From NCBI RefSeq assembly GCF_900167915.1, contig NZ_FUYM01000001.1, positions 124,001 to 188,000 of the forward strand: DNA of 64,000 nt. The letters run 5' to 3'. This document shows positions 18,262 through 62,715 of this stretch, piece after piece (position 1 is the stretch's first letter; each line of letters starts with the position of its first letter). Under the pieces are notes generated by a model. The model searched no databases. It saw only the letters and a list, made by a program, of their open reading frames with translations, and was not told the origin of the DNA. This stretch comes from Rhizorhabdus histidinilytica (GTDB taxonomy: Bacteria > Pseudomonadota > Alphaproteobacteria > Sphingomonadales > Sphingomonadaceae). Both the position numbers and the translations under genes were made by a program.

Positions 18262-18268
18262 ACGCCGC

Positions 18269-45801: not shown

Positions 45802-45818
45802 CCATACAAGTTGTATGG
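45802..45818. promoter_or_regulatory. Perfect 17-bp palindrome, candidate TetR operator
   Basis: CCATACAAGTTGTATGG is a perfect palindrome about a single central G. It sits between the MFS start (45714) and the tetR start (45889), about 88 and 71 bp from them, as expected for an operator controlling both divergent promoters. Binding by the adjacent TetR protein is inference from position and symmetry. Confidence 0.65.
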
Positions 45819-45888: not shown

Positions 45889-46545
45889 ATGACTTTCGTG
45901 GCAGAAGCGACTTGCGGCGCGCGGGTTGTCGGCTCGGCGGCGCAGCGTCGGCGGGGAAGTGGACCGCGCGGACAATCACGAGGGGATGTGCGGACCCGCC
46001 TGGTCCTGGCGGCGGCGCGCCTGTTTGTCGAGCGTGGCTTCCTCCAGACAAGCGTCGAGGATCTGCTGGGAGCCGCACGGATCAGCCGCGCCAGCTTCTA
46101 TACCTATTTCGAAAACAAGATCGCGCTGCTTGCCGCGCTGGTCGATGAACATATCGAGCGCAGGACGCGCCACTTCCATGATCTGGCGCAACTCGGCCGA
46201 CCCGACGTGGAGCAAGTTGCCTCATGGTTCAAAAAGGTCGGCGAAACGAGTCGAGAACAAGCCGGTATCGTCCGGCTCATGCGGCTGGCTGTCGCACTGG
46301 ACCCCGGCCTAATGCAACGCTTCGTCCGCGCGCGCGACAAATATGCGGAGATTTTGGGTGAGAATTTCCCTCGGCTGGATCTTTCAATCGGCGACGATGA
46401 TGAACGGGAAGCACGTCGTGCGACGGCCCATCTGCTGATCATTCAAGTAGAACAGTTCGCCTCCAGCTCGGCCGACGGAAGCTGGTATCTGGATGTAGAC
46501 ATCACCTCGCGAACCTTTGCGCGACTATTAATGCGGTATGCCTGA
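45889..46545 (+). CDS. TetR/AcrR family transcriptional regulator
   Basis: A 218-residue repressor. After a basic N-terminal tail (about residues 1-33) the helix-turn-helix reads RTRLVLAAARLFVERGFLQT, then SVEDLLGAARISRASFYTYF, ENKIALLAALVDEH. The C-terminal ligand domain is helical and unrelated to a named subfamily. The ATG at 45889 follows GTAGG closely; the upstream frame is an antisense shadow of the MFS gene. It is divergent from the MFS-TonB-hydrolase set with a perfect palindrome between, suggesting local repression relieved by the imported compound. Confidence 0.9.
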   Translation: MTFVAEATCGARVVGSAAQRRRGSGPRGQSRGDVRTRLVLAAARLFVERGFLQTSVEDLLGAARISRASFYTYFENKIALLAALVDEHIERRTRHFHDLAQLGRPDVEQVASWFKKVGETSREQAGIVRLMRLAVALDPGLMQRFVRARDKYAEILGENFPRLDLSIGDDDEREARRATAHLLIIQVEQFASSSADGSWYLDVDITSRTFARLLMRYA

Positions 46546-46862: not shown

Positions 46863-46916
46863 CTTAGCTTATGCTTAGGCAGCATCCCTTGTTGTTGAAG
46901 GCTCTGTCGCAACCTC

Positions 46917-47459
46917 TCAGTCCCGCTTCTTGTCGAGCGACGATGTTATGAAGTCACCGATATTCTGATAGGATCGCTCAAGAAGGTCCCTGAAGGTCGC
47001 CTTTTCGATTTCGGAGAAATCCTTTACGACGACCGCCTGAAACTGATCGCGCATCCCGGCCACCGCCTCGCTGATCGTCTTGCCTTCCTTCGTCAGGCAG
47101 ACGAGGGCTTTGCGCCGGTCGGTGGCGTCCTTCTTGCGCACGACCAGTCCAGCGCGTTCGAGCGCGTCGATGGCCTTGCCGATCGCGGCATCCTTGAGAT
47201 TGAGGCGGCTTCCGAGCTCACGCTGGGACATTCCGTCCTCGACACGCAGAACGGCCAGCGGATACCAGGCGCTCAGCGTCAGACCCACAGGCTCGAGGAG
47301 CAGTTCGATCGCATAAATTTCACGCATGCGGATCATGCGGATGAGATAATCTATCTCACCGGAAAACAGACTATCAAGTAAGGGCCTGTCCGATTTGTAA
47401 TCATGTGGTTCGCGAAAGGATGCGTTCTTGTTATTTTTCTTACGAGTATCCATGCCCAT
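46917..47459 (-). CDS. MarR family transcriptional regulator
   Basis: A 180-residue winged-helix regulator starting at about 47459 (MGMDTRKKNNKN); ATG 47453 or a longer start at 47540 cannot be excluded. The DNA-binding part reads YPLAVLRVEDGMSQRELGSR, LNLKDAAIGKAIDALERAGL, VVRKKDATDRRKALVCLTKE, with the wing DATDRRK typical of MarR. Long helices at both ends form the dimer interface. It lies downstream of the Rieske-aldolase-cupin set on the same strand, with a 155-bp gap holding two palindromes. It is the best candidate regulator of the TTAT-N3-ATAA sites in this locus; this is inference. Confidence 0.9.
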   Translation of the reverse strand: MGMDTRKKNNKNASFREPHDYKSDRPLLDSLFSGEIDYLIRMIRMREIYAIELLLEPVGLTLSAWYPLAVLRVEDGMSQRELGSRLNLKDAAIGKAIDALERAGLVVRKKDATDRRKALVCLTKEGKTISEAVAGMRDQFQAVVVKDFSEIEKATFRDLLERSYQNIGDFITSSLDKKRD

Positions 47460-47480
47460 CGCGCTTTCATCAGGCCAATC

Positions 47481-47518
47481 GAAATATTTCAAGTGCAGGT
47501 GGCACTTTAATCTAAATT
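47481..47518. promoter_or_regulatory. Palindromes upstream of marR, possible autoregulatory site
   Basis: GAAATATTTC (47481-47490) is a perfect palindrome, AAGTGC/GCACTT (47491-47507) a second, and TTTA-ATC-TAAA (47506-47516) a third. On the minus strand the last reads AATTTAGATTAAAGTGC, which resembles the ATTTGATAAGTGC of the Rieske promoter operator. This may be a weak version of the same regulator site. Confidence 0.35.
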
Positions 47519-47614
47519 GTTTCATCGCCACAGGCGGCAAGCCTGATGCGGGTCTATCAGTTTAGGGCAGGCGAGCAAAGCCGTATGTCGCCGCAGCCCC
47601 CTTGGCGAAACAGC

Positions 47615-48514
47615 CTATCCGGCGTCCGCCTCCATCGGATAATCGGCGGCATTGCGGACCCAGCGTGGCTTTGCGGAAAAATCGTGGCGCGGTGGCGCGA
47701 AGATGTCGACGAGCCGCGCACCCATGCTGGACCAACTGGTCGTGTGGATCATCTGCGGCGGGATCACGATCAGCGAGCAGCCCGAGCAGTCGATATGCTC
47801 GTCGGCGCGCCACAGCGATCGATCCCGGCCCCAGGGCGTGCGGAGATAATGGGAAAAATCCCCCTTGATCGTTAGGGATCCCTGCTCGAAATCCTGGTGG
47901 GCATGCGGGCTCAGCAACGCCGTATCGCGCGGCCCCTGCGACGGTTCGAAGATGTTGACCATCAGGTTGGTGGATCGGAAAATCCGGCCGAAGCCCACAT
48001 CCTCGCTATGATCGCGCAGCCTGTACAGGCGCAGCCGGAAGCCGCCCGTCGGCCCTGGCCAATAGGCGAGGGGCGCGGTGTCCTGCACAGTCTCGGCATA
48101 GGCGCCCGCATTCGCGGCCAAGCCAGCCATGTCGCGCGCGGCGCTTGAAAAAATCCGAATGACGATGCCCGATCCCTGCAGCGTCACGCGTGCTGCACCG
48201 GGCGGAAGAATGGCCAGGGTCTCCTCGGTGACGGTCTCCCCGGCTGCGCCCGCCGCGATGGTGGCGGACATGGAGGATGGAACCAACAGCATCGATTCAT
48301 CGGGGATATCGTGCTGGTCGAGGATGGCCTGCCGATCGACGAAGCTTGCCGCCACCACGAAATTGGCGCCTCGCGCAATCCAGGTCGGTGTCCCGTCAGC
48401 TTCCCGCTTCCGCGGCGTCCCCACACCAAATTGGACGAAGCTTGCCGGACGGCAGGACGCAGCGGGGGTGATGGTCTCGCGGCCATCGCGAAAGCCGCCG
48501 GACGAAAGGGTCAT
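47615..48514 (-). CDS. Cupin-type protein, function unknown
   Basis: A 299-residue protein starting MTLSSGGFRDGRETITPAAS at 48514, overlapping the aldolase stop as ATGA. The C-terminal half carries cupin-type metal motifs: LLSPHAHQDFEQGSLTIKGD and LIVIPPQMIHTTSWSSMGAR (two His in the first block, one in the second). The N-terminal half also looks like a degenerate beta-barrel (LILVP-like MLLVPSSMS, IVIRIFSSAA), so it may be bicupin. Cupins in aromatic loci include ring-cleaving dioxygenases and isomerases; which applies here is not clear. It is cotranscribed with aldolase and Rieske genes. Confidence 0.75.
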   Translation of the reverse strand: MTLSSGGFRDGRETITPAASCRPASFVQFGVGTPRKREADGTPTWIARGANFVVAASFVDRQAILDQHDIPDESMLLVPSSMSATIAAGAAGETVTEETLAILPPGAARVTLQGSGIVIRIFSSAARDMAGLAANAGAYAETVQDTAPLAYWPGPTGGFRLRLYRLRDHSEDVGFGRIFRSTNLMVNIFEPSQGPRDTALLSPHAHQDFEQGSLTIKGDFSHYLRTPWGRDRSLWRADEHIDCSGCSLIVIPPQMIHTTSWSSMGARLVDIFAPPRHDFSAKPRWVRNAADYPMEADAG

Positions 48515-49299
48515 GCCGATGGTCCTTGTCTTGCCTGATGTGCCCGAAAATCCCGCAGTTGTCGCGCCGCCGCGGCCCGCAGCAGCCCTTGATCGGAGCT
48601 TACCGCCAGCGCACCGACGCCGAGGTCGAGCAGCCACTCTGCCGCCTCGATCGTGCCGGCCGTCGCCAACAGCGCCTTGCCATGACGGCCGGCGGCTTCG
48701 GCCACTGCCAGGGCTGCGGGTCGCAGTTCGGATGGCGACGCATCCGGCCGACCCGAGGCGACCGCGAGATCGCCCAGGCCGAGGAAAAGCGCATCGACTC
48801 CTTCGACCGCTGCGATCTCCTCCGCGTTGCGGACCGCATCGGGATGCTCGATCATGACCGAGACCGCGACGCCCGCGTCGGCGCGGGCGACATGCTCGGC
48901 CAGGCCGAGCCCGCCATAGCGGCCCGCGCGCGGGGAGGGGGAGCAGCCGCGCTTGCCCCCGGCATAACGAGCGGCGGCAACCGCCGTCTCGGCCGCGCCG
49001 GCCGAATGGACGTGCGGCACCAGGATGCCGGCCGCGCCCATATCGAGAGCCGGCAGAATCGAGGTGAGGCCGGCGACGCGGACGACGCCGGCGATCCCCA
49101 GGGCGCCGGCCGCCATCAGCAGCAGGTCGAGCGCGCCGCGATCGAAGGGGCCGTGCTCTTCGTCGATGATGACGAAATCGAAGCCAAGTTCCGCGAGAAT
49201 CTCGGTGGCATGGACGTTCGGCGTCTTGATGAAGCTGCCAAGCAGCGGTCGGGCGCCGCGCAGCGCACGCCGGAAGCCGCCGAACTCGTCCTGTCTCAT
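48511..49299 (-). CDS. HpcH/HpaI family aldolase
   Basis: A 262-residue class II pyruvate-type aldolase. It shows GSFIKTPNVHATEILAELGF, FVIIDEEHGPFDRGALD (base region), GAAGILVPHVHSAGAAETAV and the metal-binding Glu/Asp region VMIEHPDAVRNAEEIAAVEG, DALFLGLGDLAVASG. The family cleaves 4-hydroxy-2-oxo acids to pyruvate plus an aldehyde, the last step of extradiol pathways. The start is the ATG at 49299 with GGAGA 5 bases upstream. It lies between the Rieske beta gene (49 bp upstream of its start) and the cupin gene. Confidence 0.9.
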   Translation of the reverse strand: MRQDEFGGFRRALRGARPLLGSFIKTPNVHATEILAELGFDFVIIDEEHGPFDRGALDLLLMAAGALGIAGVVRVAGLTSILPALDMGAAGILVPHVHSAGAAETAVAAARYAGGKRGCSPSPRAGRYGGLGLAEHVARADAGVAVSVMIEHPDAVRNAEEIAAVEGVDALFLGLGDLAVASGRPDASPSELRPAALAVAEAAGRHGKALLATAGTIEAAEWLLDLGVGALAVSSDQGLLRAAAARQLRDFRAHQARQGPSA

Positions 49300-49348
49300 G
49301 GAAATCTCCGGCTCATCTCCGGGCACGCCGATCGGTCGACGGCCGGGC

Positions 49349-49897
49349 TCAGAAGAAGGTGGTCAGATTCTTGAACAGCATCTTGCTCTGATCGAGGAAG
49401 ATCGACCGCTTGCGGAGCAGGAAGCCGTCGCCGTGCACGCGAAGGACGTCGGCGCGCTTGCCGATGAACAGCCGCACTTCATCCTCCCGGCGGTTCACAT
49501 AGAGGAGGAAGCGACACTTCACCGCGATCTCGTCCTCGGTCGCGGAGACGATCCGGACGTTGCTCGTCATATGCGTCGTGCGTGACAGCGGTTCCTCCGC
49601 CCAATGATCGCCGCCCTGGATCTGCTTGATGCGCTGGGTCAGCGTCGGCTTGCCCTCGTCGAACCAGGCGGCGTCGCGATCTTGCCGACTATATTCGTCC
49701 TGCGGCCGGCTATGCTCGAAATTGCGGACGAGCGGCATCCAGTAGTGGATGTCGTCGTCGAGCAGGTCCAGCCAACGGTCGAACTGTCGTTCGTCGAGCA
49801 GTTCCGCCTCATAGGAGAGGAAGTCCTCGACCCGCTCCTTCAGCGTCGAGGCGATGGCGGTCGGTGTGGTGACAGTCGGGGCGCCCTGCGCGGTCAT
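49349..49897 (-). CDS. Aromatic ring-hydroxylating dioxygenase, beta subunit
   Basis: A 182-residue small subunit of the NTF2-like fold. It shows VEDFLSYEAELLDERQFDRW, LDLLDDDIHYWMPLVRNFEH, HMTSNVRIVSATEDEIAVKC and the C-terminal LLRKRSIFLDQSKMLFKNLT, all typical of naphthalene/biphenyl dioxygenase beta subunits. The start at 49897 (MTAQGAPTVTTPTA) overlaps the alpha gene stop as ATGA. It supports the alpha3beta3 hexamer and is not catalytic itself. The longer open frame upstream is a shadow of the alpha gene. Confidence 0.94.
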   Translation of the reverse strand: MTAQGAPTVTTPTAIASTLKERVEDFLSYEAELLDERQFDRWLDLLDDDIHYWMPLVRNFEHSRPQDEYSRQDRDAAWFDEGKPTLTQRIKQIQGGDHWAEEPLSRTTHMTSNVRIVSATEDEIAVKCRFLLYVNRREDEVRLFIGKRADVLRVHGDGFLLRKRSIFLDQSKMLFKNLTTFF

Positions 49898-51243
49898 TCC
49901 GCGGCCTCCCTGCGGAAGGCCTGAGGCTGGCCGGTCATCATCTCGGTCCATCGATCGTAGAATATCCGCTGGGCATGTTCGGACACGCCCTCGTCGACCA
50001 GCGCCCCCGCGCCGATCCAGGGTTCGGGCCAGGCCCATTGCGCATGGCCGCCCAGGCGAAGCTGGTAATTCATCGGCAGGCGCCGGGCGAGGTGGCTCTC
50101 GGCACCGATCTGCGCCGACCCCCAATTCTCGAAATCGTCCTGCTCGACCATGCCGGCCGGACCAGTGTAGCGCAGCAGATAGTGGCGCATGACGTCCTTG
50201 ACGACCTGGGGGGCGTTCTTGGGCACGAAGATCCATTTCCATATCTCGGTGCGGCCAGGCGCTCGTGGGACATAGGAGGTCACCGAGGTCCGGTTGGCGG
50301 CATTGTAGATGAAGTTGGGGAAGACCACGCCGCCGCGATTCAGCAGCCGTTCCCTTTCGCCGATGCGCTTCTGGCGCGCGAAATGGGCATCGCGGAAATA
50401 GGCGTCCACCTCCGGATTGGCACCCCATTGCGATTGATAGTCCCGGCCGGCAACGTCGTAGAGATTGCCGCGCACGGCGTGTCCGCCCGCCGGGAAGGTG
50501 ATGTTCAGCATCCGGAACTTAGCCTTGTCGGCGTCCCAGGTGTGGCGGGTCCGCAGGCCGGTGAGGGCCAGGCCGACCCGCTGCACCGACTTGTGGCTCA
50601 CGTCGTGATAGAGGTCTCCGGCGGCATTTTCGGCGCCGAACTTCCAATTGCTGGGAATCTCGTTCTTGAGGATGCCGTCGATGACCTCGAGACCGTCATC
50701 CTCGCCGTCGGGCCCCATCATGAACTCGCGCAGCCACCACGCCATGTCGCCGAGGAAATCCTCGAACGACGGGGCCGCTTCGTCGAAGGTCGCCCAGATC
50801 GATCCGTAATAGCGGGCGACACGCGCCTTGATCATTCCCCATTTCGAGCGGTCGAGCTTGCCGCCATAGCCTTCGGAATTCAGCGGAACGCCGGAAAGCT
50901 CGCCCGTGTTGGAGAAGGTCCAGCCATGATAGGGGCAGGTGAAGCGCTTCGCATTGCCTTTGTCATACCGGCACACCGGCATTCCGCGATGGGTGCAGAT
51001 GTTGAGCAGCACGCTGACGTCCCCGCCGGCGTCGCGCGTCACAACGACCGGTTCGCGTCCCGCTTGCGAGAGGAAATAGTCGCCGTTGTTCGGGATCTGG
51101 CTCTCATGCCCGACGAACAGCCATGACTTGCCGAACACCAGGTCCATCTCCCGATCGAAGATGGCCTGATCGGAAAAGATCGTCCGATCGATCATGCCGG
51201 TGCGGGTGTCGATCAGACCCCCTCCCGCGGAATCATACCCCAT
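49894..51243 (-). CDS. Aromatic ring-hydroxylating dioxygenase, Rieske alpha subunit
   Basis: A ~449-residue oxygenase large subunit. The Rieske [2Fe-2S] motif C-x-H-x17-C-x2-H is seen as CTHRGMPVCRY then FTCPYHGWTFSNTGELSGVP. The mononuclear iron site is GDLYHDVSHKSV (Asp then two His), with the third ligand Asp in EQDDFENWGSAQ. The start is ATG 51243 or 51246; AAAGGA lies 6 or 3 bases upstream, favouring 51243. It needs ferredoxin and reductase proteins not encoded in the window. Transcription starts from the shared promoter module at 51292-51341. Substrate unknown. Confidence 0.96.
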   Translation of the reverse strand: MGYDSAGGGLIDTRTGMIDRTIFSDQAIFDREMDLVFGKSWLFVGHESQIPNNGDYFLSQAGREPVVVTRDAGGDVSVLLNICTHRGMPVCRYDKGNAKRFTCPYHGWTFSNTGELSGVPLNSEGYGGKLDRSKWGMIKARVARYYGSIWATFDEAAPSFEDFLGDMAWWLREFMMGPDGEDDGLEVIDGILKNEIPSNWKFGAENAAGDLYHDVSHKSVQRVGLALTGLRTRHTWDADKAKFRMLNITFPAGGHAVRGNLYDVAGRDYQSQWGANPEVDAYFRDAHFARQKRIGERERLLNRGGVVFPNFIYNAANRTSVTSYVPRAPGRTEIWKWIFVPKNAPQVVKDVMRHYLLRYTGPAGMVEQDDFENWGSAQIGAESHLARRLPMNYQLRLGGHAQWAWPEPWIGAGALVDEGVSEHAQRIFYDRWTEMMTGQPQAFRREAAE

Positions 51244-51291
51244 CATGCATCCTTTCTGCGGCACCGGATCGCGACAGCGTCCATAGCCATA

Positions 51292-51341
51292 TTGCACTTA
51301 TCAAATAAGTTATGCTAGCAAAGTATTATCTGTCAAGCAGG
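51292..51341 (-). promoter_or_regulatory. Shared promoter module A, upstream of Rieske alpha
   Basis: In promoter direction (minus strand) it has CCTGCTTGACA (-35 TTGACA at 51336-51331), a 16-base spacer and CATAAC (-10 at 51314-51309). The spacer and -10 contain CTTTGCTAGCATAA. Just downstream ACTTAT-N3-ATAAGT (51296-51310) is a perfect palindrome where a repressor would block initiation. The alpha start codon is 49 bp downstream. About 41 of 51 aligned positions match module B at 62716-62766. Confidence 0.75.
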
Positions 51342-51435
51342 GACGGTCGTGGGACGCCTGCGTTGCTCGATCAGATAGGGCGCCGCCCAGGAGCGAGGTT
51401 CGCGGCCGAGCAGCGTCAAATGCAGAGGAGAAGAG

Positions 51436-52356
51436 ATGCCGATCGTCATGGGCGCCGCGGTGAGCCATTCGCCGCTTCTGTACAGGGAGCGGAGCGCATG
51501 GAATGCGGTCTCCGCCATCCTGCGGAAGGACGCCATCCAGCCGAAGAGCGCTGCGGCCGAAGGGGCGGACATGCTGGACGGCTATGCGGACCGCGTGACA
51601 CGTGGCCTGTCGGCGATCCAACAGGCGATCGCGCGGGCCGATCTGGATGCGATCATCCTTCTCAGCGCCGATCGCGGTACCCAGTTCGACAGTTCGCATG
51701 TCCCCCAGATCCATCTCCAGGTCGGGGGAGAATTATGGGGTGATCCCGCCATCGCCGAACTCGGCGAGCCGAGCCGCCGATTGAGTTTTTCGGGAGAAAG
51801 CGAGGCGGCCTCGATGATCATCGAGGAACTGGTGCGGGACGGCTTCGACATTGCCGAGGCCAGGGATCAGTTCGATCCGGTTGGCGATCCGGCGCGAGGA
51901 CTGACGCCCGCCGCGGTCGAGGCCGTCGACCGGCTGGCCGATGGGCTGCCGATCATCGCGATCAGCATCAACTGTCATGTCGCTCCGGTCATCGGTGGCG
52001 GGCGGGTCCATTGCTTTGGGCTGGCGCTTGAACGTGCCGCGCGGCTGACTGGAAAAAGGTTGGGCCTGCTGGTGGCCGGCGGCCTGTCGGGCGATCCGGA
52101 AGGGCGCATGGGCGGATGGATCGATGACGTCTTCGACAAATGGGTGCTTACGCGCCTGGAGCGGGGGCGTTCGATCGATCTGGCGCGGGTATGGGACGCC
52201 CGCTCGCGCACCCTGCTGGGTAGCACAGCCGAGGTTCGGCTGTGGGCGGCGGCTGGTGCTGCCCTCGAACAGGCCGGCTGCCGCGCCACCGTCCATGATT
52301 ATCTCGCGATCCACGCCGCTGCGGCCGGCATCGCTTTCACGACCTGGGAGAACTGA
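51436..52356 (+). CDS. LigB-like (class III extradiol) family protein, catalytically doubtful
   Basis: A 306-residue protein of the LigB fold. It keeps the N-terminal metal His in MGAAVSHSPLLYRER and the late metal Glu in LLGSTAEVRLWAAAGA. The second metal His is replaced in LLSADRGTQFDSS, and the catalytic His position reads VAGGLSGDPEGRMGGW, with Gly where LigB has His (GGMSH). It is therefore probably inactive as a dioxygenase or has another role, perhaps a partner of the next gene, 2 bp downstream. Ribosome-binding site GGAGAAG upstream. It is divergent from the Rieske alpha gene. Confidence 0.85.
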   Translation: MPIVMGAAVSHSPLLYRERSAWNAVSAILRKDAIQPKSAAAEGADMLDGYADRVTRGLSAIQQAIARADLDAIILLSADRGTQFDSSHVPQIHLQVGGELWGDPAIAELGEPSRRLSFSGESEAASMIIEELVRDGFDIAEARDQFDPVGDPARGLTPAAVEAVDRLADGLPIIAISINCHVAPVIGGGRVHCFGLALERAARLTGKRLGLLVAGGLSGDPEGRMGGWIDDVFDKWVLTRLERGRSIDLARVWDARSRTLLGSTAEVRLWAAAGAALEQAGCRATVHDYLAIHAAAAGIAFTTWEN

Positions 52357-52358
52357 TC

Positions 52359-53357
52359 GTGCCGATCGTTGCCGCAATGGCGTCGTCCCATTCGCCGATC
52401 CTGTTCCAGGACACCTATCGCGGCTGGATGCGCTGGTTCGAACTGATCAGCTCCGGAATCCCGCAGCCGGAAGATGTGCTGCTTCAGGACGAGGCGTGCG
52501 TCACCGACTGGATCCGGCGCCGCCAACAGGCGTTCGGCCGCTTCGAGGCGGCGCTGGAGAAGCACAGGCCCGAAGCTCTGATCGTCGTGGGCGGCGACCA
52601 GTTCGAATGGTTCTCAGCCGCGAACAATCCCAATATCATGGTTCATGCCGGGCAAGAGGATATCCTCGGCTTCCACAATTATCGCGATTTCGATACCGAG
52701 CCTCTGGCCAAGTTCTGGGAGGACTTCGACCGCTTCGGCGTCCGGCTGAAGGTCCATGCCGAGTTCGCCGAGTATCTGCTGGGCGGACTGGTGGCCCGCG
52801 ACTTCGACGTTTCGATCAGTCGCAGCCAGAATCCGCGCGGGCGGCCGCAGTTCAAGGCACCGCACGCGTTGACCCGGACCATGCCGCTTCTGATGCCCAG
52901 GCTCGACATCCCCGTCATCCCGGTCATCATCAAGACGACCGAGCGGACGTCGGCTGCCCTGTCCGGCGAGCGGTGCATCGCGCTGGGCCAGGAGATCGGA
53001 CGGATTTGCGCCGAAATCGATGCGCCGATCGCGATCTACGGCAGCGGCGGCATGTCGCATGATCCCGAAGGGCCGCTGTCGGGCTGGGTCGACCAGACCC
53101 TCGACACATGGGTGCTCGATTGCCTCGATCGTGCCGATTTCGATCAGCTTGGCGGACTGTTCTCTTTCCGGTCGGCCGCCACCGATTCGGGAACGGGCGA
53201 GTTGCGCACCTGGCTGGTCGCCGCGGCCGCGATGCACGCGGCGCAGCCCGCCGCACCCTGCCAGCTGATCGATTATTTTCCGGCGCATATCGCCACCGTC
53301 GGTGCCGGCTGGGTGCTGTGGGAGGCCGAGCCGCGAAGCTCCGCCGATAAATTATGA
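52359..53357 (+). CDS. LigB-type class III extradiol dioxygenase
   Basis: A 332-residue protein of the LigB family, starting at the GTG at 52359. It shows the metal His in MASSHSPILFQDTYR, the position equivalent to the second metal His as Gln in VVGGDQFEWFSAANN, the catalytic His in IYGSGGMSHDPEGPLSGW and the metal Glu in SGTGELRTWLVAAAAMH. The Gln variant occurs in a LigB subgroup with GDDQ motifs, so activity is possible but not assured. It would cleave a catecholic or gallate-like ring meta to the hydroxyls. The tandem with the preceding LigB-like gene suggests a heteromer or duplication. Confidence 0.88.
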   Translation: MPIVAAMASSHSPILFQDTYRGWMRWFELISSGIPQPEDVLLQDEACVTDWIRRRQQAFGRFEAALEKHRPEALIVVGGDQFEWFSAANNPNIMVHAGQEDILGFHNYRDFDTEPLAKFWEDFDRFGVRLKVHAEFAEYLLGGLVARDFDVSISRSQNPRGRPQFKAPHALTRTMPLLMPRLDIPVIPVIIKTTERTSAALSGERCIALGQEIGRICAEIDAPIAIYGSGGMSHDPEGPLSGWVDQTLDTWVLDCLDRADFDQLGGLFSFRSAATDSGTGELRTWLVAAAAMHAAQPAAPCQLIDYFPAHIATVGAGWVLWEAEPRSSADKL

Positions 53358-53366
53358 TTGCATATA

Positions 53367-53383
53367 TTATTATAGCATAATAA
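53367..53383 (+). promoter_or_regulatory. Perfect 17-bp palindrome with TTAT-N3-ATAA core before the TonB receptor
   Basis: TTATTATAGCATAATAA is a perfect 7-3-7 palindrome 65 bp upstream of the TonB receptor start. Its core TTAT-AGC-ATAA has the same form as the operators in promoter modules A and B, and it contains the octamer TAGCATAA also found in both. It is very AT-rich compared with its surroundings. Confidence 0.6.
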
Positions 53384-53448
53384 ATAGGCCTCGGCCATCG
53401 AGCGTGCCGCCACAGCATGCCGATAAGCCCTGGGGGAGGGGACAAGAC

Positions 53449-55809
53449 ATGATGCGGAACAGATTGCTTTTGAGCAGCGCCATCGCGATCGGCGTGCCTT
53501 ACGGTGCCGGCTTGCTCGCGCCGGAAATTGGAATGGCACAGGCGTCGCAGGAGGCTCCCGCCACGGTCGATGCCGTCGAGGAGATCGTCGTCACTGCCCA
53601 GAAACGCGAACAGAGCGTGCAGGATGTTCCGATCTCGATCGCGGTCACGACCGGCGCGACGATGCGGCAGGCGCAGATCACCAATCTCAACGACCTGGGC
53701 AATCGGATCAGCGGCGTGAAGGTCAACAAGGCCGGCGCGTCGGACTCGCTGAACATCCGCGGCATCGGCTCGGGCTTCAACATGGGCTTCGAGCAGTCGG
53801 TCGCGACGTTCATTGACGGTGTCTATCTCAGCCGGTCGCAGGCGACGCGGGTCGGCTTTCTCGACCTCGAGCGGATAGAGGTCCTCAAGGGACCCCAGTC
53901 GACCTATTTCGGCAGCAACGCGATCGCCGGCGCGCTGAGCGCGGTGACGCGCAAGCCAAGCCAGACCTTCGAAGGCTATGCGTCGGCGCTCTATGCGCCG
54001 TCGGACGGAGAATATGACCTGCAGTTGGCGGTCGGTGGTCCGCTCGGTGAGAAGCTTTCGGGACGTGCCGCGATCCGTTTCTCCGGGATGGACGGATATA
54101 TCCGCAACGTCCGGATCAACGCGGACGGACCGGATAACCGGGACGTGCAGGGGCGGCTTGCGCTGCGCTACGAGACGCCGGGCGCGCTCGATGTCAACTG
54201 GCGGGTCGACTATGCCCATTTCGACGATAAGCATGCCGAGTTCCAGGAGATACTGAACTGTCCGCCCGCACCCGGTTACGGCGCGCCAGGCGCGGGCTGC
54301 CTGTCGGTGATCGCGGCCGGCAATGCCGACAACAAGCTCGACTATCGCACCAGCACGGGCGATTCCTTCTTCAGGCTGGAATCGGTCAGCAGCGCGCTCA
54401 ACATCGCTTGGACGGCGGGCAGTCACACGCTGACATCGACCACGGGCTTCTATTGGCACGACATCACCCGCTTCACCGACAGCCCGCTGCTGGCCATCGC
54501 CGGGCTGACGGGGATCGGCAAGTCGAGCGGCCTGCCCATCTACCAGCGGGAGAAATTCCGCTCGATCAGCCAGGAAGTGCGCCTGGAATCCGAGAAGGGC
54601 GGGTTCCTGGAATATGTGCTCGGCCTTTATTACGATGATTCCAATCTGAAGGGCGGCCTGTCCTTCGGCTTCTACTTCGCGCCTTTCTTCGCCCGGCTTC
54701 CCGGCCTGGTCGCGCCGTTCACGCCGATCGCCCAGCAGGTGCTGGGCGATCAAGACCAGTCCAACCGTTCGGCCTTCGCCGCGGCGACGCTCAATCTGTC
54801 GCCGGAGCTCCGGCTCAACCTTGGTGCGCGCTACTCCTCGATCCGCAAGGAAAACCATCGCACGACCATCGTCGGCTTCGGCGACGACCTCGGGCGGGTG
54901 AAGGCCGATATGCTGTTGTCGCCCGCGGCGACCGCAGCCTGGACCGGCACCGTCGGATTTCCGTCAGGCGACTATCCGGTGACGCATCGAACAGACGACA
55001 AGTTCATGCCGTCGATCAACGTGCAATATGACCTCACGTCGGATGCGATGGTCTTCGCGTCCTACACGACCGGCTTCAAGGCCGGAGGCTGGGCGATCGG
55101 CAACACGCGCGACTTCTTCGGGCCGGAAACCGTCAAATCCTTCGAAGGGGGTATCAAGGCGTCCTGGTTCGGGCGGAAGCTGACCACCAACATCTCGCTG
55201 TTCAACAGTCGCTACAACGGCCTGCAGGAATCGACGACGCTGATCAACGCGGCCGGCCTGCCGGTACCAGCGATCGCGAATGTCGGCCAGGCGAGGGTGC
55301 GGGGCGTCGATCTGGAAGTTGGCATCCGTCCCTTCGCCGGTGCCAGTATCAACGCCAATATCGGCTATCTCGATGCCAAATATCTGGAATATCCGAACGC
55401 GCCCTGCACCCAGCTGCAGCTTCTCGCCCGGCCGACCGGCTGCACGCAAAACCTGGCTGGCAAGCGCAAGGCGTTCGCGCCCGAATGGAGCGGCAGCGTC
55501 AACGCCAACTATGCCTTCGAGCTGACGGACGATCTGAAGGCCAAGCTGGGTGCCTGGGTCTATTTCACCTCGGGCTACTATCAGCAGGCGAGCATCGATC
55601 CGCTCTTCTACCAGCCGCATTACGCCAAGCTCGATCTCCGCGCCGCTATCGCCGGTTCGGAAGACCGGTGGGAGGCCGCGGTGATCGCCAAGAACGTGAC
55701 CGACAAGGTGACCTCATCCTACCGTTCGGTGATGACGGCTTCCAACGCCGTCACCGCCATTTCCGACAGGTCGCGTTCGATCGCGATCCAGTTATCGACC
55801 AAGTTTTGA
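53449..55809 (+). CDS. TonB-dependent receptor
   Basis: A 786-residue outer-membrane receptor. The start is the ATG at 53449 (MMRNRLLLSSAIAIGVPYGA) with GGGAGGGG upstream. The signal peptide ends near GMAQA. The TonB box region is EEIVVTAQKREQSVQDVPIS and the plug RIEVLKGPQSTYFGSNAIAG. The barrel ends in AIQLSTKF. It is the receptor of the aromatic locus, lying between the LigB genes and the AAHS carrier, and probably imports the aromatic growth substrate, perhaps a bulky ester. A 9-bp hairpin separates it from the carrier gene. Confidence 0.96.
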   Translation: MMRNRLLLSSAIAIGVPYGAGLLAPEIGMAQASQEAPATVDAVEEIVVTAQKREQSVQDVPISIAVTTGATMRQAQITNLNDLGNRISGVKVNKAGASDSLNIRGIGSGFNMGFEQSVATFIDGVYLSRSQATRVGFLDLERIEVLKGPQSTYFGSNAIAGALSAVTRKPSQTFEGYASALYAPSDGEYDLQLAVGGPLGEKLSGRAAIRFSGMDGYIRNVRINADGPDNRDVQGRLALRYETPGALDVNWRVDYAHFDDKHAEFQEILNCPPAPGYGAPGAGCLSVIAAGNADNKLDYRTSTGDSFFRLESVSSALNIAWTAGSHTLTSTTGFYWHDITRFTDSPLLAIAGLTGIGKSSGLPIYQREKFRSISQEVRLESEKGGFLEYVLGLYYDDSNLKGGLSFGFYFAPFFARLPGLVAPFTPIAQQVLGDQDQSNRSAFAAATLNLSPELRLNLGARYSSIRKENHRTTIVGFGDDLGRVKADMLLSPAATAAWTGTVGFPSGDYPVTHRTDDKFMPSINVQYDLTSDAMVFASYTTGFKAGGWAIGNTRDFFGPETVKSFEGGIKASWFGRKLTTNISLFNSRYNGLQESTTLINAAGLPVPAIANVGQARVRGVDLEVGIRPFAGASINANIGYLDAKYLEYPNAPCTQLQLLARPTGCTQNLAGKRKAFAPEWSGSVNANYAFELTDDLKAKLGAWVYFTSGYYQQASIDPLFYQPHYAKLDLRAAIAGSEDRWEAAVIAKNVTDKVTSSYRSVMTASNAVTAISDRSRSIAIQLSTKF

Positions 55810-55813
55810 CCGT

Positions 55814-55853
55814 GACGCCCCGGTGCCCGGGCCATGTCCGGATGCGGGGCGTC
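55814..55853 (+). other. Hairpin between the TonB receptor and AAHS carrier genes
   Basis: GACGCCCCG (55814-55822) and CGGGGCGTC (55845-55853) form a perfect 9-bp stem with a 22-base loop. There is no T-tract, so it is more likely an mRNA stabiliser or attenuator that sets receptor above carrier expression than a true terminator. Confidence 0.5.
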
Positions 55854-55878
55854 GAAGGCAGTGAAGGAACGACGTCCC

Positions 55879-57288
55879 ATGTCGATATCGAGTGAAGGTG
55901 GCGCAGCTCTCCCCGCCGTCGATTTCGCGCGCACCGTGCGTGAAGGTCCGTTCGGGCGCAGGCAGGGCATCATCATCTTCATGCTGGGCCTGCTGGTCCT
56001 GCTCGACGGCATGGACACGCAGATGCTGGGCGTGATCGCGCATGACATCACGCGCGACCTGGGCCTGCCGATATCGAGCTTCGGTGTCGTCTTCGCATCG
56101 GGGCTGGCGGGCGCGATCATCGGGGCGATGGTGATGAGCCTGATGGGTGACCGATGGCTCGGTCGCAAGACGATCACCATCCTCTCGATGGCGCTCGCCA
56201 GCCTGTCGACGATCGTCACGCCGCTGGCGACCAATCTGAACGAGCTCCTGCTGATACGCATCATCGCGGGGATCGGCCTCGGCGCGGCGATGCCGGGGGT
56301 CTTCTCCCTGTTGATGGAATTCTCGCCGACGCGCTACACGCGGCCCATCACTTCCTGTCTCGTCGCCTTCATGCCGCTCGGCTCGTTCCTCGGCGGCATG
56401 ATCGGCCAGGCGGTGGTCCCCGATTTCGGATGGCGGATGCTGCTCTATGTCGGCGGCGGCCTGACCCTGGCGGTGACGCTGGTCGCGATGGTGTTGCTGC
56501 CGGAGTCGGTCTATTTCCTGCTGAACATCAAGAAGGACACCGCCCGCGCATTGTCCGTCGCGCGACGCTTCCTTCCGCATATGGCGATCGGCTCGCTCGT
56601 GCCCGATGAGCGCCACGTCGCCGCCCGGCAGAACCAGCCGGTCGCCAAGCTGTTCGCCGGCGGCTTCTGGAAGTTCACCCTGCTGATCTGGCTGGCCTAT
56701 ATCCTCAACCAGGGTATCGTCTATTTCGTGCTGAGCTGGACTCCGGCCCTGCTCGAATCCTCGGGTGCGGCGCAGAGCTCTGGGATGCATGCGGCCTCCA
56801 TGTTCGGACTGGGCGGGGCGCTCGGCACGGCGCTGCAGGGGTGGATGGCCGCGAGGTTCAACATCTACCGGCTGATGTTCATCGAGATGGCCGTCTATGT
56901 GATCGGCATCCTCATCCTGCCGTCGATCCTGGCGGACGAACTGTTCGCGCCGGTGGCGGTGTTCTTCATCTCGGCAGGCATCTGCGCCTATCATGCCGGC
57001 TTCATCATCATCCTGTCGGAAACCTATCCCGACGACTTCCGCACGACGGGCTTCGGCTGGGCGCTGGGTATAGGTCGGTTCGGGGCGACGCTGGCACCTG
57101 TCCTCGCGGGGACGATGGTCGGGCTGGGCTGGGGGGCGCAGCACATCTTCTCCGCCGCCGCCATCCCGGGTGTCGCGAGCGCGCTGACCCTGTTCGGTAT
57201 CGCGATCCTGCTGGGCGCGAAGGGCCGACGGACGCGGACGGCCGCCGCGGTCATGCCCGCGGGCGATCCGCTGACCTCGACGCGCTGA
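55879..57288 (+). CDS. MFS transporter, aromatic acid:H+ symporter (AAHS) type
   Basis: A 469-residue 12-TM carrier. The start is the ATG at 55879 (MSISSEGGAALPAVDFARTV) with GAAGGAA upstream. The family signature is in TM1, FMLGLLVLLDGMDTQMLGVI, with the essential Asp residues (DGxD). It also shows DRWLGRKTITILSMALASL and LLIRIIAGIGLGAAMPGVFS. AAHS carriers (PcaK, BenK, VanK) import aromatic acids with protons. This one is followed after 11 bp by the carboxylesterase gene, indicating that the ester and acid steps share an operon. Confidence 0.93.
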   Translation: MSISSEGGAALPAVDFARTVREGPFGRRQGIIIFMLGLLVLLDGMDTQMLGVIAHDITRDLGLPISSFGVVFASGLAGAIIGAMVMSLMGDRWLGRKTITILSMALASLSTIVTPLATNLNELLLIRIIAGIGLGAAMPGVFSLLMEFSPTRYTRPITSCLVAFMPLGSFLGGMIGQAVVPDFGWRMLLYVGGGLTLAVTLVAMVLLPESVYFLLNIKKDTARALSVARRFLPHMAIGSLVPDERHVAARQNQPVAKLFAGGFWKFTLLIWLAYILNQGIVYFVLSWTPALLESSGAAQSSGMHAASMFGLGGALGTALQGWMAARFNIYRLMFIEMAVYVIGILILPSILADELFAPVAVFFISAGICAYHAGFIIILSETYPDDFRTTGFGWALGIGRFGATLAPVLAGTMVGLGWGAQHIFSAAAIPGVASALTLFGIAILLGAKGRRTRTAAAVMPAGDPLTSTR

Positions 57289-57299
57289 GGCCGGGCGAC

Positions 57300-58757
57300 A
57301 TGGAAGCGCCGGTCGTCAGCACCGTTCATGGTCGGGTGCGCGGCTTGTCCGTGTCGGCGGACATCTGGGGGTATCATGGCATCCCTTATGCGGCGCCACC
57401 GGTGGGACCGCTGCGCTGGAGGCCGCCTCAGCCCGCCGCCGGCTGGACCGGCATCCGCGAGGGGGTGGCCTTCGGACCGGACCCGATCCAGCCGCCGGGG
57501 GCACGCACGTCGCGAGCGCCGGGCATGGCGGAGGATTGCCTCTATCTCAATGTCTGGGCGCCCAAGGAACATCGTGCAGGCGGCTGGCCCGTCCTGATCT
57601 GGTCGTGCGGCGGCGCCTTCACGACGGGGGGAGGGGCTTTCGCCGAGGAAGATCCGGCGCGGCTGGCGGCGAAGGGGGCGGTGGTCGTCTCGTTCAACGT
57701 CCGCCTCAACATCTTCGGTTTCCTGGCGCACCCCGCGCTGAGCGCGGAATCGCCGCAGGGCTCATCCGGCAATTACGGCCTGATGGACCAGGCAGCGGCC
57801 TTCCGCTGGATCCGCGAGAATATCGAAGCCTTCAATGGCGACAGCCGCCGGATGACCTTCTTCGGAGAATCGGCCGGGGCGACCATGGCGCTGCTGCTGC
57901 TGGCGTCTCCGCTCTTCGAGCGTCCCTATGATCGCGCGATCTTCCAGTCCCCGGGATCATTCGGCGATCTGCTGCCGCTGGCGGCGGCGGAGGAGCATGG
58001 CGCGGCACTTGGCGGCTCGGTGGAGGAGATGCGGGCTATCCCGGCCGACGAACTGCTCGACAGGCTGAAACGCCTGCCCGCCGTGCGGCCCAGCCTGTGG
58101 CTTGCGCGGCCGATCCGCCCGATCGCGGACGGCTGGCTGATCCGTTCGACGATGCCTTTCACCGAGGACTTCGATGCCGTGCCGGCCATCATCGGCGTCA
58201 ACGAGGATGAGGGGGCCTTCTTCGGGCCGCGCATGGGCGTTCGAACCCTCGACGACTACCGCGCGTTCGTTTCGGGGATTTTCGGCGAGAACAGCGAGGA
58301 GGCCCTGGCATATTATCCCGCGACCGATGAGGGGCAGGTCGGGGCGATGTTCGCTGCCGTCTATGGCGACCGCGGCTTTCTCTATCCGATCGATCGGCTC
58401 GCCCGGGCTTTCGTCCGGCAAGGCGCCGACGTCCATCGCTATGTCTATGCCTATCGCCACGGCGAGACGCGGCGGCCGCCGACCCATTCCGACGAGATCG
58501 GGGTGCTGATGGACAGGCTGCCCCATGTCCGGCCGCAGGACGCCGACATGGCGGATATCCTGGCACGCAGCTGGATCGCCTTTGCCGAGACGGGCGATCC
58601 GAACTGCCACGGCCTGCCCGATTGGCCGCGCTATGATCCGGCGACCGATCGCTATCTGAGGCTGGATGTGCCGCCGTCCGTGGGTGCCGGCTGGCGTGCG
58701 GACGCGATCGATTTCGTCGCCCGCAAGAGCGTCGATCGATCGGTTTCGGGGAGATAG
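57300..58757 (+). CDS. Type-B carboxylesterase
   Basis: A 485-residue esterase of the cholinesterase/carboxylesterase family. The nucleophile Ser is in MTFFGESAGATMALLLL, the Glu in IIGVNEDEGAFFG and the His in RPPTHSDEIGVLM. Other family blocks are IPYAAPPVGPLRWRPPQPA, EDCLYLNVWAPKEH and GNYGLMDQAAAFRWIRENI. The oxyanion-hole motif is unusual: CGGAF where the family has HGGAF. There is no signal peptide, so it acts in the cytosol. It probably splits the imported ester. The start at 57300 is set by 11-bp spacing to the AAHS stop; upstream frame extension is a shadow. Confidence 0.93.
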   Translation: MEAPVVSTVHGRVRGLSVSADIWGYHGIPYAAPPVGPLRWRPPQPAAGWTGIREGVAFGPDPIQPPGARTSRAPGMAEDCLYLNVWAPKEHRAGGWPVLIWSCGGAFTTGGGAFAEEDPARLAAKGAVVVSFNVRLNIFGFLAHPALSAESPQGSSGNYGLMDQAAAFRWIRENIEAFNGDSRRMTFFGESAGATMALLLLASPLFERPYDRAIFQSPGSFGDLLPLAAAEEHGAALGGSVEEMRAIPADELLDRLKRLPAVRPSLWLARPIRPIADGWLIRSTMPFTEDFDAVPAIIGVNEDEGAFFGPRMGVRTLDDYRAFVSGIFGENSEEALAYYPATDEGQVGAMFAAVYGDRGFLYPIDRLARAFVRQGADVHRYVYAYRHGETRRPPTHSDEIGVLMDRLPHVRPQDADMADILARSWIAFAETGDPNCHGLPDWPRYDPATDRYLRLDVPPSVGAGWRADAIDFVARKSVDRSVSGR

Positions 58758-58760
58758 GCC

Positions 58761-60173
58761 TTGGCGATATCCAGACGAGAGCTGATGGTGGCCGGAGGTG
58801 GATTGACGGCGGCGGCGCTCTGTGGAGCCGGCGCGCAGGCGGGGCGGCGGGATCCGGTGGAAGCGCTTCGCGCGCGGTTGCGGGGCAGGCTGCTCGTGCC
58901 GGCCGATGCCGGCTATGCTGCAGCTCGTCGGGGTGAGGGGACGACGCCGGTGGGAGATCGCTCCCCGATGCTGATCGTCCAGCCAGAAGGGCCCGACGAC
59001 GTTGCCCGCACGCTTGATTTCGTGCGTACGCAGGGCGTCGACGTCGCGGTCCGCTGCGGCGGGCATGACCTGCTCGGCGTCTCGACACCGGCTCGGGGCG
59101 TGCTGATCGATCTGTCGCGGATGAACGACGTTGTTCTCGACCCTGTCGCCGGCGTCGCGCGGGTCGGCGGCGGTGCACGGGCGGGGGCGCTGACCGCGGC
59201 GGGGGCGCCGCACGGCCTTGCGCCTGCGCTGGGGATGAATCCCAATGTCGGGGTGGGTGGCCTGACGCTTGGCGGAGGCATGGGATGGCTCGCCGGCACC
59301 CATGGCGCGACCGTCGACAATCTGCTGGCGGTCGATGTCGTCACCGCGGACGGACGGTCGCTCAAGGCCAGCGCCGACGAGAACGAGGACCTGTTCTGGG
59401 CGCTGCGCGGCGGCGGCGGCAATTTCGGCGTGGCCACCGCCTTCACCTATCGCATGCGCCCGGTTCCGCAGGTCCTGGCCGGCGACATCGGCTACAGGAC
59501 AGATCCGGCCCGGTTTCTCCGCTTCCTGCGGGACTTCCTTGCAACCAGTCCCGATGAACTCGAATTGGGCGTGTTGTTCTCGCTGGGGAGCAATCCCTTC
59601 GCGATCACAAGGCTGTGCTGGTCGGGAGACGCGGCGGCGGGAGCGGCGGCGCTACGACCGTTGCGGACGTTCGCCTCGCCAATGCTCGATACCGTCAGGC
59701 CGCAGAGCTATGCCGGCTTTGCCAACGGCGCGGCGCATTTCGACAATATGTTCCTGCGCGGCGGCGAGTTCGCCGGACTGGGCGACGAGGTGATCGATGC
59801 CCTTGCGGCGATCATCGAGCGGGGTGGGCCGAAGGACTGTCTGGTCGGCGTCCTGCACTATATGCACGGGGCGCTGTGCCGGGTGCCGGCGGATGCTACG
59901 CCCTTCATCCGCACGCCGGGTCACATCCTCTACAACATCGTCGCTCCCTGGCAGGGGGCCGGACTGCAACGGGACAGGATGGACTGGGCGCTCGCAGCCT
60001 CGGAGGCGCTCCGGGGCGTCAACAGCAAGGGCATCTACATCAATTATCTGAGCTATGAGGGCGAAGCCCATGTGCGGGACAGTTTCGGTCCGCATCATGC
60101 CCGGCTTCGGGCGATCAAGCGCCGATATGATCCCGAAAATCTCTTTCACCATAACCGCAACATCCGGGCCTGA
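58761..60173 (+). CDS. FAD-dependent oxidase, berberine-bridge-like, Tat-exported
   Basis: A 470-residue FAD-linked oxidase. The N-terminus MAISRRELMVAGGGLTAAAL carries a twin-arginine signal. This requires the TTG start at 58761 (GGGGAGA upstream) and places the enzyme in the periplasm. The FAD-binding block VAVRCGGHDLLGVST contains the His for covalent flavin. VGGLTLGGGMGWLAGTHGAT follows, and the C-terminus RYDPENLFHHNRNI is typical. The Cys that forms the second flavin bond in plant enzymes is absent. Members oxidise alcohols, sugars or monolignols, giving aldehydes. It is 3 bp after the esterase and followed by an aldehyde dehydrogenase. Confidence 0.92.
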   Translation: MAISRRELMVAGGGLTAAALCGAGAQAGRRDPVEALRARLRGRLLVPADAGYAAARRGEGTTPVGDRSPMLIVQPEGPDDVARTLDFVRTQGVDVAVRCGGHDLLGVSTPARGVLIDLSRMNDVVLDPVAGVARVGGGARAGALTAAGAPHGLAPALGMNPNVGVGGLTLGGGMGWLAGTHGATVDNLLAVDVVTADGRSLKASADENEDLFWALRGGGGNFGVATAFTYRMRPVPQVLAGDIGYRTDPARFLRFLRDFLATSPDELELGVLFSLGSNPFAITRLCWSGDAAAGAAALRPLRTFASPMLDTVRPQSYAGFANGAAHFDNMFLRGGEFAGLGDEVIDALAAIIERGGPKDCLVGVLHYMHGALCRVPADATPFIRTPGHILYNIVAPWQGAGLQRDRMDWALAASEALRGVNSKGIYINYLSYEGEAHVRDSFGPHHARLRAIKRRYDPENLFHHNRNIRA

Positions 60174-60248
60174 CCGCGCGCGTCGGTGGCGGGCGAAGGC
60201 CCGCGACGAAAACTGGTGCTCGCTGTGCGCCCCCGACGGGAGAATATC

Positions 60249-61727
60249 ATGGAGGCCGATGCAATCGAGGCGCCGACGGTGACGAATGGACCGGCGGCCA
60301 CGCACTTCATCGACGGCGAATGGAGATCGTCCCGCTCGGGCGCGAGCTTCGCCAGCCTGGACCCTGCGAGCGGGACGGCGATCGGCGATGTCGGCGCCGG
60401 GGATGCGCACGATGTCGATGCGGCTGTTCGCGCCGCGCGGGCCGCGTTCGACGAGCGGCGCTGGCTCGCGATGCCGGCGCCGCAGCGGGCGAGGATCATG
60501 TTCGCGATCGCCGACGGCATCGAAGCGGCCCTAGACCAGCTGGCCGTCAACGAGGTGCGCGAAAACGGCATGCCGCTCCGTCTGGCCCGCGCCACGATCA
60601 GCAACGGTGCCCAGGCCTTTCGCTATTTCGGCGGCTGGATCGGCAAGATCCACGGCCAGACCGGCGAGATGGCGGCCGGCGACGCATTCCACGCTTACAC
60701 GCTGAAGGAACCGATGGGCGTCGCCGCGCTGATCGTGCCCTGGAACGGGCCTTTCATGATGGCCTGCCACAAGGTCGCACCCGCGCTCGCCGCCGGATGC
60801 ACGGTGGTACTCAAGCCCGCCGAGGACACGTCGCTGAACACACTTCATCTGGCCCGCATCGCAACCGAGGCGGGGGTGCCGGCCGGGGTGCTGAACCTCG
60901 TTACCGGCCTGGGCTCGGTGGCAGGAGCGGCGCTGGTCGAGCATCCCGACGTCGACAAGGTCAGCTTCACGGGCTCGACGCCCGTCGGCCGCCAGATCGT
61001 GCAGGCCTCGGCCGGCAACTTCAAAAGGCTCTCGCTGGAACTGGGCGGCAAGTCGCCGGTCATCGTGCTCGACGATGCCGATCTCGACATGGCGGTGCCG
61101 GCGATCGTGGCGGGGATCATGACCAATTCCGGCCAGGCCTGCGTTGCCGGATCGCGGCTTTATGCGCAGCGGGGCATTTACGACAGGCTTATCCAGGCGG
61201 TGTCCGATGCCGCATCGAGGATGGTGGTCGGCAACGGTCTCGACGAGGCCACGCAGATGGGGCCCGTGATCTCGCAGAAGCAGCTCGATCGGGTCCTGTC
61301 CTATATCGATACCGGCGTGGCGGAGGGGGCGGAACTGGCCACCGGCGGCAAACGGTGCGGCGATACCGGTTTCTTCGTCGAGCCCACCATCCTGTCGCGG
61401 GCCCCGGCCGATGCGCGGGTCGTGCGCGAGGAGATTTTCGGGCCGGTGCTGTCGGCGATGCCGTTCGACGATCTCGACTGGGCGATCCGCCAGGCGAACG
61501 ACACGCGCTATGGCCTGGCTGGCGCGGTCTACACGACATCGCTCGACAAGGCGCACCGGGTCGCGCGGTCGGTGCGCGCGGGCAATGTCTGGATCAACTG
61601 CCACAGCGTTCAGGATTTCTGGCTGCCGTTCGGAGGATATAAGGAGTCCGGCTGGGGCCGCGAGCGCGGTGCGCAGGGGCTGGATGCCTTCATGGAAACC
61701 AAGTCGGTCGTCGCACGGCTATACTGA
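60249..61727 (+). CDS. Aldehyde dehydrogenase (NAD(P)+)
   Basis: A 492-residue ALDH. The start is the ATG at 60249 (MEADAIEAPTVTNG) with GGGAGA upstream. It shows VPWNGPFMMACHKVAPALAA, the cofactor block VSFTGSTPVGRQIVQASAG, the general base Glu in LSLELGGKSPVIVLDDADLD and the nucleophile Cys in TNSGQACVAGSRLYAQRG, and ends with PFGGYKESGWGRERG. It oxidises an aldehyde to the acid, most likely the product of the preceding FAD oxidase or of later ring-cleavage steps. It is the last gene of the plus-strand set before the convergent VOC gene. Confidence 0.95.
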   Translation: MEADAIEAPTVTNGPAATHFIDGEWRSSRSGASFASLDPASGTAIGDVGAGDAHDVDAAVRAARAAFDERRWLAMPAPQRARIMFAIADGIEAALDQLAVNEVRENGMPLRLARATISNGAQAFRYFGGWIGKIHGQTGEMAAGDAFHAYTLKEPMGVAALIVPWNGPFMMACHKVAPALAAGCTVVLKPAEDTSLNTLHLARIATEAGVPAGVLNLVTGLGSVAGAALVEHPDVDKVSFTGSTPVGRQIVQASAGNFKRLSLELGGKSPVIVLDDADLDMAVPAIVAGIMTNSGQACVAGSRLYAQRGIYDRLIQAVSDAASRMVVGNGLDEATQMGPVISQKQLDRVLSYIDTGVAEGAELATGGKRCGDTGFFVEPTILSRAPADARVVREEIFGPVLSAMPFDDLDWAIRQANDTRYGLAGAVYTTSLDKAHRVARSVRAGNVWINCHSVQDFWLPFGGYKESGWGRERGAQGLDAFMETKSVVARLY

Positions 61728-61783
61728 GCGACCCGCGGCTCCCGGCCATCGGGATAGGCCGACGGCCCATCCCATGCGCCCCG

Positions 61784-62656: not shown

Positions 62657-62715
62657 CGTCTTTGTCCGCTCCTCTGGTAGCAGCCCCGCCGGGCAGCTTT
62701 TCCGGCTATCGTCGG

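Follow-up and report, generated by a model that had tools for sequence, protein, structure and literature searches.

The window, a stretch of 64,000 nucleotides from Rhizorhabdus histidinilytica, carries two closely similar segments of about 50 bp that lie before distant, oppositely oriented genes of an uncharacterised ring-hydroxylation and ring-cleavage cluster. This raises the question of what the shared segment does and which protein may act on it. The two copies (modules) and the genes next to them are the following:

51291-51340, minus strand: module A, directed toward Rieske alpha, inside the Rieske/LigB1 divergent gap
49894-51243, minus strand: Rieske dioxygenase alpha subunit, first gene behind module A
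51436-52356, plus strand: LigB-type dioxygenase 1 (LigB1), which diverges from Rieske alpha and may also be served by module A
62717-62767, plus strand: module B, directed toward FAH, inside the VOC/FAH divergent gap
62807-63646, plus strand: FAH-family gene, behind module B
61784-62656, minus strand: VOC-family dioxygenase, which diverges from FAH and may also be served by module B

By aligning both modules in promoter direction, 43 of 51 columns are found to be identical, with one gap; the earlier note had counted about 41 of 51. It had also placed each module 40-50 bp from a start codon in unrelated surroundings. Indeed, the ATG of Rieske alpha at 51243 (minus strand) lies 47 nt past module A and the GTG of FAH at 62807 (plus strand) 39 nt past module B, and the flanks agree at only 8 of 50 upstream and 11 of 40 downstream positions. 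The 31-base pattern TTTGCTAGCATAASTTATTNNATAAGTGCAA, with up to three mismatches, occurs at two places in the window and at none in 100 shuffles; across the whole genome of 5,473,339 bases it returns the same two places (reversed-pattern control, 0). Because the match is confined to two places genome-wide, is absent from the shuffles and has unrelated flanks, it is neither chance nor a dispersed repeat. It is conserved control DNA. The genome-wide search had been set beforehand as a possible refutation by revealing a dispersed repeat; with two copies in the genome, that reading is ruled out.

On the minus strand, the cluster runs from Rieske alpha through Rieske beta, an HpcH-type aldolase and a gene with no Pfam or NCBIfam match to marR, which is preceded by a gap of 155 nt. 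The plus strand carries two LigB-type dioxygenases, a TonB receptor, an MFS transporter, a carboxylesterase, an EncM-like FAD oxidase and an ALDH, followed by the VOC dioxygenase (minus) and the FAH-family gene (plus). The TonB receptor, MFS transporter and carboxylesterase were named from their translations, and the other families by Pfam/NCBIfam. Among the NCBIfam families listed, none of the ten proteins scanned reaches an equivalog cut-off (ALDH: best 25 of 43), and the Rieske beta subunit passes one subfamily cut-off. Behind FAH, positions 470-4976 of L003 hold a VanA-like Rieske oxygenase, a TonB receptor and a glutathione-transferase (GST)-like ORF, again named from translations; the oxygenase has a 75% identical ORF in G094.

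The same cluster, MarR gene included, is present in two other genomes, G094 and L047 (a Sphingomonadales MAG), the latter being the one relative that came out of a LigB2-alignment scan of genome contigs limited to two peptide patterns. The G094 cluster is syntenic (Rieske alpha 83%, LigB2 74%, FAH 74%) and has modules before Rieske alpha and FAH. In L047 the cluster spans MarR to ALDH, and modules precede Rieske alpha and ALDH, so that ALDH has its own copy there. No match to the FAD oxidase, VOC or FAH was seen in 21 kb of L047, and the best FAH match in its genome, on another contig, is 56% identical. Between carboxylesterase and ALDH, where the window carries the FAD oxidase, L047 has, in its region 16615-19027, an ORF that is weakly like the glutathione-transferase-like ORF of L003 (27%).

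Beyond these relatives, the distribution of the cluster is patchy. The LigB2 alignment across 396 order genomes, and MarR in 385 class genomes at E<=1e-25, returned the own genome only. Some MarR match occurs in 289 of 298 family genomes (own included); a close one outside the own genome is found only in G094, at 70% identity, the others among the matches listed being at most 39%. Close MarR orthologs are present in 1 of 14 genomes of the genus and in 1 of 3 of G094's genus, in each case an already-known genome. Plasmid records with LigB2 matches (45) or Rieske alpha matches (936) all stay below 60% identity. The literature search returned no description of this cluster or operator and no paper with TTATGCTAGCATAA, its short-motif part giving only noise, in keeping with the earlier designation of the regulon as undescribed.

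By comparing the promoter sites of the three genomes, each module can be divided into blocks:

51331-51338, minus strand: -35 element GCTTGACA, module A, 8/8 in all seven compared pairs
51310-51323, minus strand: predicted operator CTTTGCTAGCATAA, module A, two mismatches to the palindrome TTATGCTAGCATAA
51305-51309, minus strand: STTAT block, module A, which with the preceding bases contains the candidate -10 TAACTT
51291-51295, minus strand: GCAAT block, module A, reading ATTGC on the plus strand
62719-62726, plus strand: -35 element GCTTGACA, module B, from site comparison
62735-62748, plus strand: predicted operator CTTTGCTAGCATAA, module B, from site comparison, palindrome match and matrix
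62749-62753, plus strand: STTAT block, module B, from site comparison
62763-62767, plus strand: GCAAT block, module B, from spacing and alignment

In the seven compared pairs, which are drawn from six promoter sites in three genomes only, GCTTGACA is identical at 8/8 positions throughout, the 14-base operator at 11-14/14 and STTAT at 3-5/5, while GCAAT is identical at 5/5 in six pairs and at 1/5 in the pair with the L047 ALDH. The 50 bases upstream agree at 8-23/50 and the 40 downstream at 10-19/40. The distance from TTGACA to the GC is 11 nt at five sites and 12 nt at one, and GCAAT lies 13 nt after CATAAS in 5 of the 6. Conservation thus resides in the -35, the palindrome, STTAT and GCAAT and does not extend to the inner spacer, although the earlier note had counted the spacer as conserved: where TTGACA is separated from the operator by seven bases, these agree at 1-3/7 per pair (3/7 between the window copies), and conservation is confined to the part next to GCTAGC. 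The block after the -10 is likewise conserved in STTAT and GCAAT but not in ATAAGT, which both window copies show and the other two genomes miss.

The operator consensus, drawn by eye with the TonB-receptor sites included, is TTATGC-TA-GCATAA. At all six promoter sites this inverted repeat follows the -35 and overlaps or adjoins the core promoter, as an operator would. Its left half is imperfect in every module (CTGCGC in G094, for example). Over the six sites, dyad symmetry is strongest for GC-NN-GC (5.0 of 7 pairs) and next for an ATAASTTAT centre (4.33 of 7); the second dyad being nearly as strong, the axis of the predicted operator may lie at either. With up to three mismatches, the palindrome occurs four times in the window, always before cluster genes (shuffle mean 0.15), and three times each in the G094 and L047 stretches, counts that are partly circular because the consensus comes from the same sites. 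An independent test is provided by a symmetric matrix built from the six TTGACA-bearing promoter sites alone, with the TonB-receptor sites excluded.

This matrix bears on a further pair of predicted sites:

53367-53380, plus strand: third operator TTATTATAGCATAA, before the TonB receptor (ATG 53449), two mismatches to the palindrome
53352-53365, plus strand: weaker site TTATGATTGCATAT next to the third, possibly a fourth operator copy, three mismatches, fifth in the window by matrix score

The TonB-receptor site takes third place by score both in the 64-kb window (16.9, followed by 13.5) and in the 39.8-kb G094 stretch (16.0, followed by 9.6). In L047 it comes second (20.2), and the other top-three places in each stretch are module sites. 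On the three whole genomes, the six-site model gives eight matches at E<=10, all inside the cluster. Six are the sites on which it was built and two are TonB-receptor sites, in L047 at E 0.014 and in G094 at E 0.11; that of the window is missing from the list. The TonB-receptor copies have no TTGACA at the module's distance. It is most likely from these matches that the regulon has at least three heads, including the TonB receptor at 53449. The two operons of the original proposal thus keep their place as Rieske and FAH heads, and the list was incomplete.

Taken together, these results make it probable that each module acts as an inducible promoter containing its own operator, to which the cluster's own MarR repressor binds. 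A perfect -35 element (GCTTGACA), 11-12 nt before GCTAGC, is followed by the 14-bp pseudo-palindrome (TTATGC-TA-GCATAA), which would lie between the -35 and the start site. Without inducer, a MarR dimer would occupy the palindrome and exclude RNA polymerase from the Rieske operon and the FAH gene. The palindrome overlaps or abuts each candidate -10, and such overlap fits repression by exclusion. The TonB receptor would be repressed likewise through the further operator copies, and the divergent LigB1 and VOC genes may be under the control of the module operators as well. MarR would be released by an inducer, which is probably the pathway substrate or an intermediate of ring cleavage, and all parts of the pathway would then be switched on at once. 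Should marR be the final gene of the Rieske operon, it would be autoregulated; the 155-nt gap before it would also leave room for a promoter of its own. The general kind of switch is familiar and the details are new. For a cluster so far uncharacterised, this would define a regulon that can be tested, its operator stated and its regulator linked, and thereby offer a direct way to the inducing substrate and a possible biosensor part.

The proposed binder is encoded at the far end of the minus-strand genes:

46917-47459, minus strand: MarR-family regulator, proposed operator binder (Pfam MarR_2, E 1e-11)

It has the winged-helix DNA-binding domain of MarR proteins (Pfam MarR_2 45.2 bits, cut-off 27; MarR 44.6, cut-off 24.6) and falls below the cut-off in all 16 NCBIfam families listed (HpaR, 42.5 of 121.2; Saro_0803, 42 bits against a cut-off of 200; BilQ and others). 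In the structure model, the wHTH region is fair and the whole weak (mean pLDDT 59.7). The regulator gene accompanies the operator in all three clusters, the proteins of the other two being 68 and 73% identical, and the helix-turn-helix stretch SQRELGxRLNLKDAAIGKA is unchanged across them but for one residue. Because it is inherited with the cluster, and by analogy with CouR, Saro_0803, DesR and SlyA, this MarR is the best candidate binder of the palindrome, as had been suggested. Just before its start, at 47488-47510, there is an inverted repeat around AAGTGC/GCACTT (9-nt arms, 89% complementary), which is not obvious in the other two genomes and is possibly a separate control of marR.

Published MarR regulators bind inverted repeats near promoter elements (CouR, PMC4737184; Saro_0803, PMC10046596; DesR, PMC6888825). 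CouR of Rhodococcus jostii RHA1 is described as a MarR-family repressor of aromatic catabolism with demonstrated binding to inverted repeats at several promoters, one of which, between divergent promoters, was proposed to control both; its cATTGA-N5-TCAATg overlaps the -35, whereas the predicted operator TTATGC-TA-GCATAA follows it (PMC4737184). Saro_0803, a MarR-like regulator of the aromatic-degradation gene nov1 in Novosphingobium, has an inverted repeat, GCAATA-N6-TATTGC, that overlaps a predicted -10 but differs from the window's (PMC10046596), and the window MarR does not belong to its protein family. DesR of Sphingobium sp. SYK-6 is reported as a MarR-type repressor acting at similar inverted repeats in separate lignin-aromatic promoters, its own included; its repeat is, however, the 15-bp GTTTGTGTCACATAC, at -40 to -26 or +23 to +37 (PMC6888825). 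The consensus of SlyA, also of the MarR family, is TTAGCAAGCTAA, likewise a short palindrome with half sites that join at GC-NN-GC, although the outer bases differ and SlyA often relieves H-NS silencing (PMC5797941).

On the other hand, the operator might belong to a different regulator, such as the TetR (gene at about 45890-46545) or a protein from some other locus of the genome, a possibility we regard as unlikely. At E<=1e-10 nothing in the other two cluster stretches matches this TetR, while MarR occurs in all three clusters and its DNA-binding domain is nearly unchanged there. The TetR gene and the MFS gene that diverges from it (MFS1) are separated by a gap with a different, perfect 8-1-8 palindrome, CCATACAA-G-TTGTATGG at 45802-45818, which is probably the operator of that TetR; the TetR was set aside as binder. 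A regulator encoded elsewhere would need to be common to all three genomes.

Another reading would do without a dedicated regulator, the module being just a core promoter formed by the -35 and an alphaproteobacterial housekeeping -10 (GCTAGCAT). The earlier note had claimed a good -35 and -10. TTGACA is indeed perfect at both modules, but a scan for standard sigma-70 promoters (TTGACA plus TATAAT-like, 16-18 nt apart) reports 0 at either site. By eye, candidate -10 elements are CATAAS at 16/17 nt; TAACTT, TAAGTT or TAACAT at 18/19 nt, with A2 and T6 in all six sites; and the sigma-73-like GCTAGCAT, in whose place the L047 ALDH site has GCCGGCAT. The last is similar to the sigma-73 consensus that PMC5324124 quotes for Caulobacter, TTGaCgS-x11-14-GCtAxAwC, with a spacing here of 10-11 on that count. 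However, the L047 ALDH site does not carry GCTA, and the palindrome also stands before the TonB receptor, there without TTGACA. Moreover, only 9 of 397 family genomes carry TTGACAN{10,13}GCNNGCATAA, at 11 places (reversed control, 5): two in the window's genome (G000), two in G094 and one in each of seven others, those seven without GCTAGC. In G563 it occurs at two places, both on the cluster contig. A core promoter by itself is disfavoured because the pattern is rare, whereas a general promoter would be common, and we consider this reading improbable. A regulator bound at the module, and not RNA polymerase alone, is the best reading of the block conservation, as the earlier note had held. An RpoH promoter was rejected by eye, since CTTGACA and GCATAAC do not fit the alphaproteobacterial consensus sequences (RpoH1 CTTGAA-N15-16-CCTATAT; RpoH2 CTTGCC-N15-16-CCTATCT; PMC4843759).

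The likeness of the window copies could also reflect recent copying or gene conversion instead of regulation. The nine bases after STTAT agree at 7/9 between them, but at 2-3/9 in the other compared pairs, and both copies have ATAAGT there (51296-51310, 62749-62762), which in copy A yields a further inverted repeat, ACTTAT-3-ATAAGT. On present comparison ATAAGT is lineage-specific, because the sites of the other two genomes lack it, and either local copying or a second, lineage-specific operator would fit it. Copying may account for this extra motif, but not for the conserved core, which two other genomes retain even as the spacer diverged to 1-3/7; conservation in three genomes refutes it as the whole explanation, and its chances against regulation are very slight. 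A Xer/dif site, considered since GCATAA recalls the dif core, was set aside, the module being two copies at promoters, and an RNA element was dismissed with no Rfam family at gathering score within 46900-64000.

The module may also be bidirectional. The distance in G094 from TTGACA to the divergent start codon is 20 bases at one module (LigB1 ATG) and 30 bases at the other (VOC ATG, chosen by us), so little room that the promoters of LigB1 and VOC must either share sequence with the module or be located on its far side. All five divergent-gap sites have GCAAT, which reads ATTGC on the opposite strand, and it is missing at the L047 ALDH, which has no adjoining divergent gene and is the single non-divergent site in this contrast. 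The short gaps and the GCAAT pattern suggest a two-way promoter with one operator, similar to the proposal for the CouR divergent pair (PMC4737184), and there is no clear reverse -10 at the modules. Tentatively, and a little short of calling it probable, we propose a bidirectional promoter of about 50 bp with a single MarR operator at its centre that would gate RNA polymerase from either side, with TTGACA serving Rieske and FAH and ATTGC forming part of the -35 for LigB1 and VOC; the cassette, re-used at the L047 ALDH, would keep at least four transcription units in step. Such an arrangement would resemble the bidirectional promoters of E. coli and Salmonella, in which divergent transcription comes from one short, partly symmetric element with a shared -10 and start sites usually 18 bp apart (PMC12825309, PMC10268837). 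A bidirectional promoter in this sense would have start sites on both strands within about 7-25 bp. If true, it would show how one operator keeps divergent catabolic operons in step.

Across whole genomes, the exact core WGCATAASTTAT occurs twice in G000 and three times in G094, always inside the cluster; one mismatch adds two and four places elsewhere, respectively (reversed control, 8 and 2 matches). The shorter YTWTGCNNGCATAA is by no means unique to the cluster: with at most one mismatch it gives 45 matches in G000 (control 22), 10 in G094 (5) and 35 in G563 (14). By our own tally, CTWTCCTCGCATAA makes up 27 of these 45. It comes from an unrelated dispersed element, about 130-190 bp long with inverted ends CTWTCCTCGCATAAGCTCGGGCG, which lies between genes outside the window (for example L080, L081 and L082); its ends make up these 27 copies, 0 of them in the window. 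In G563, further regulon members are possible, because two of the four exact matches of the short palindrome lie on contigs other than the cluster contig.
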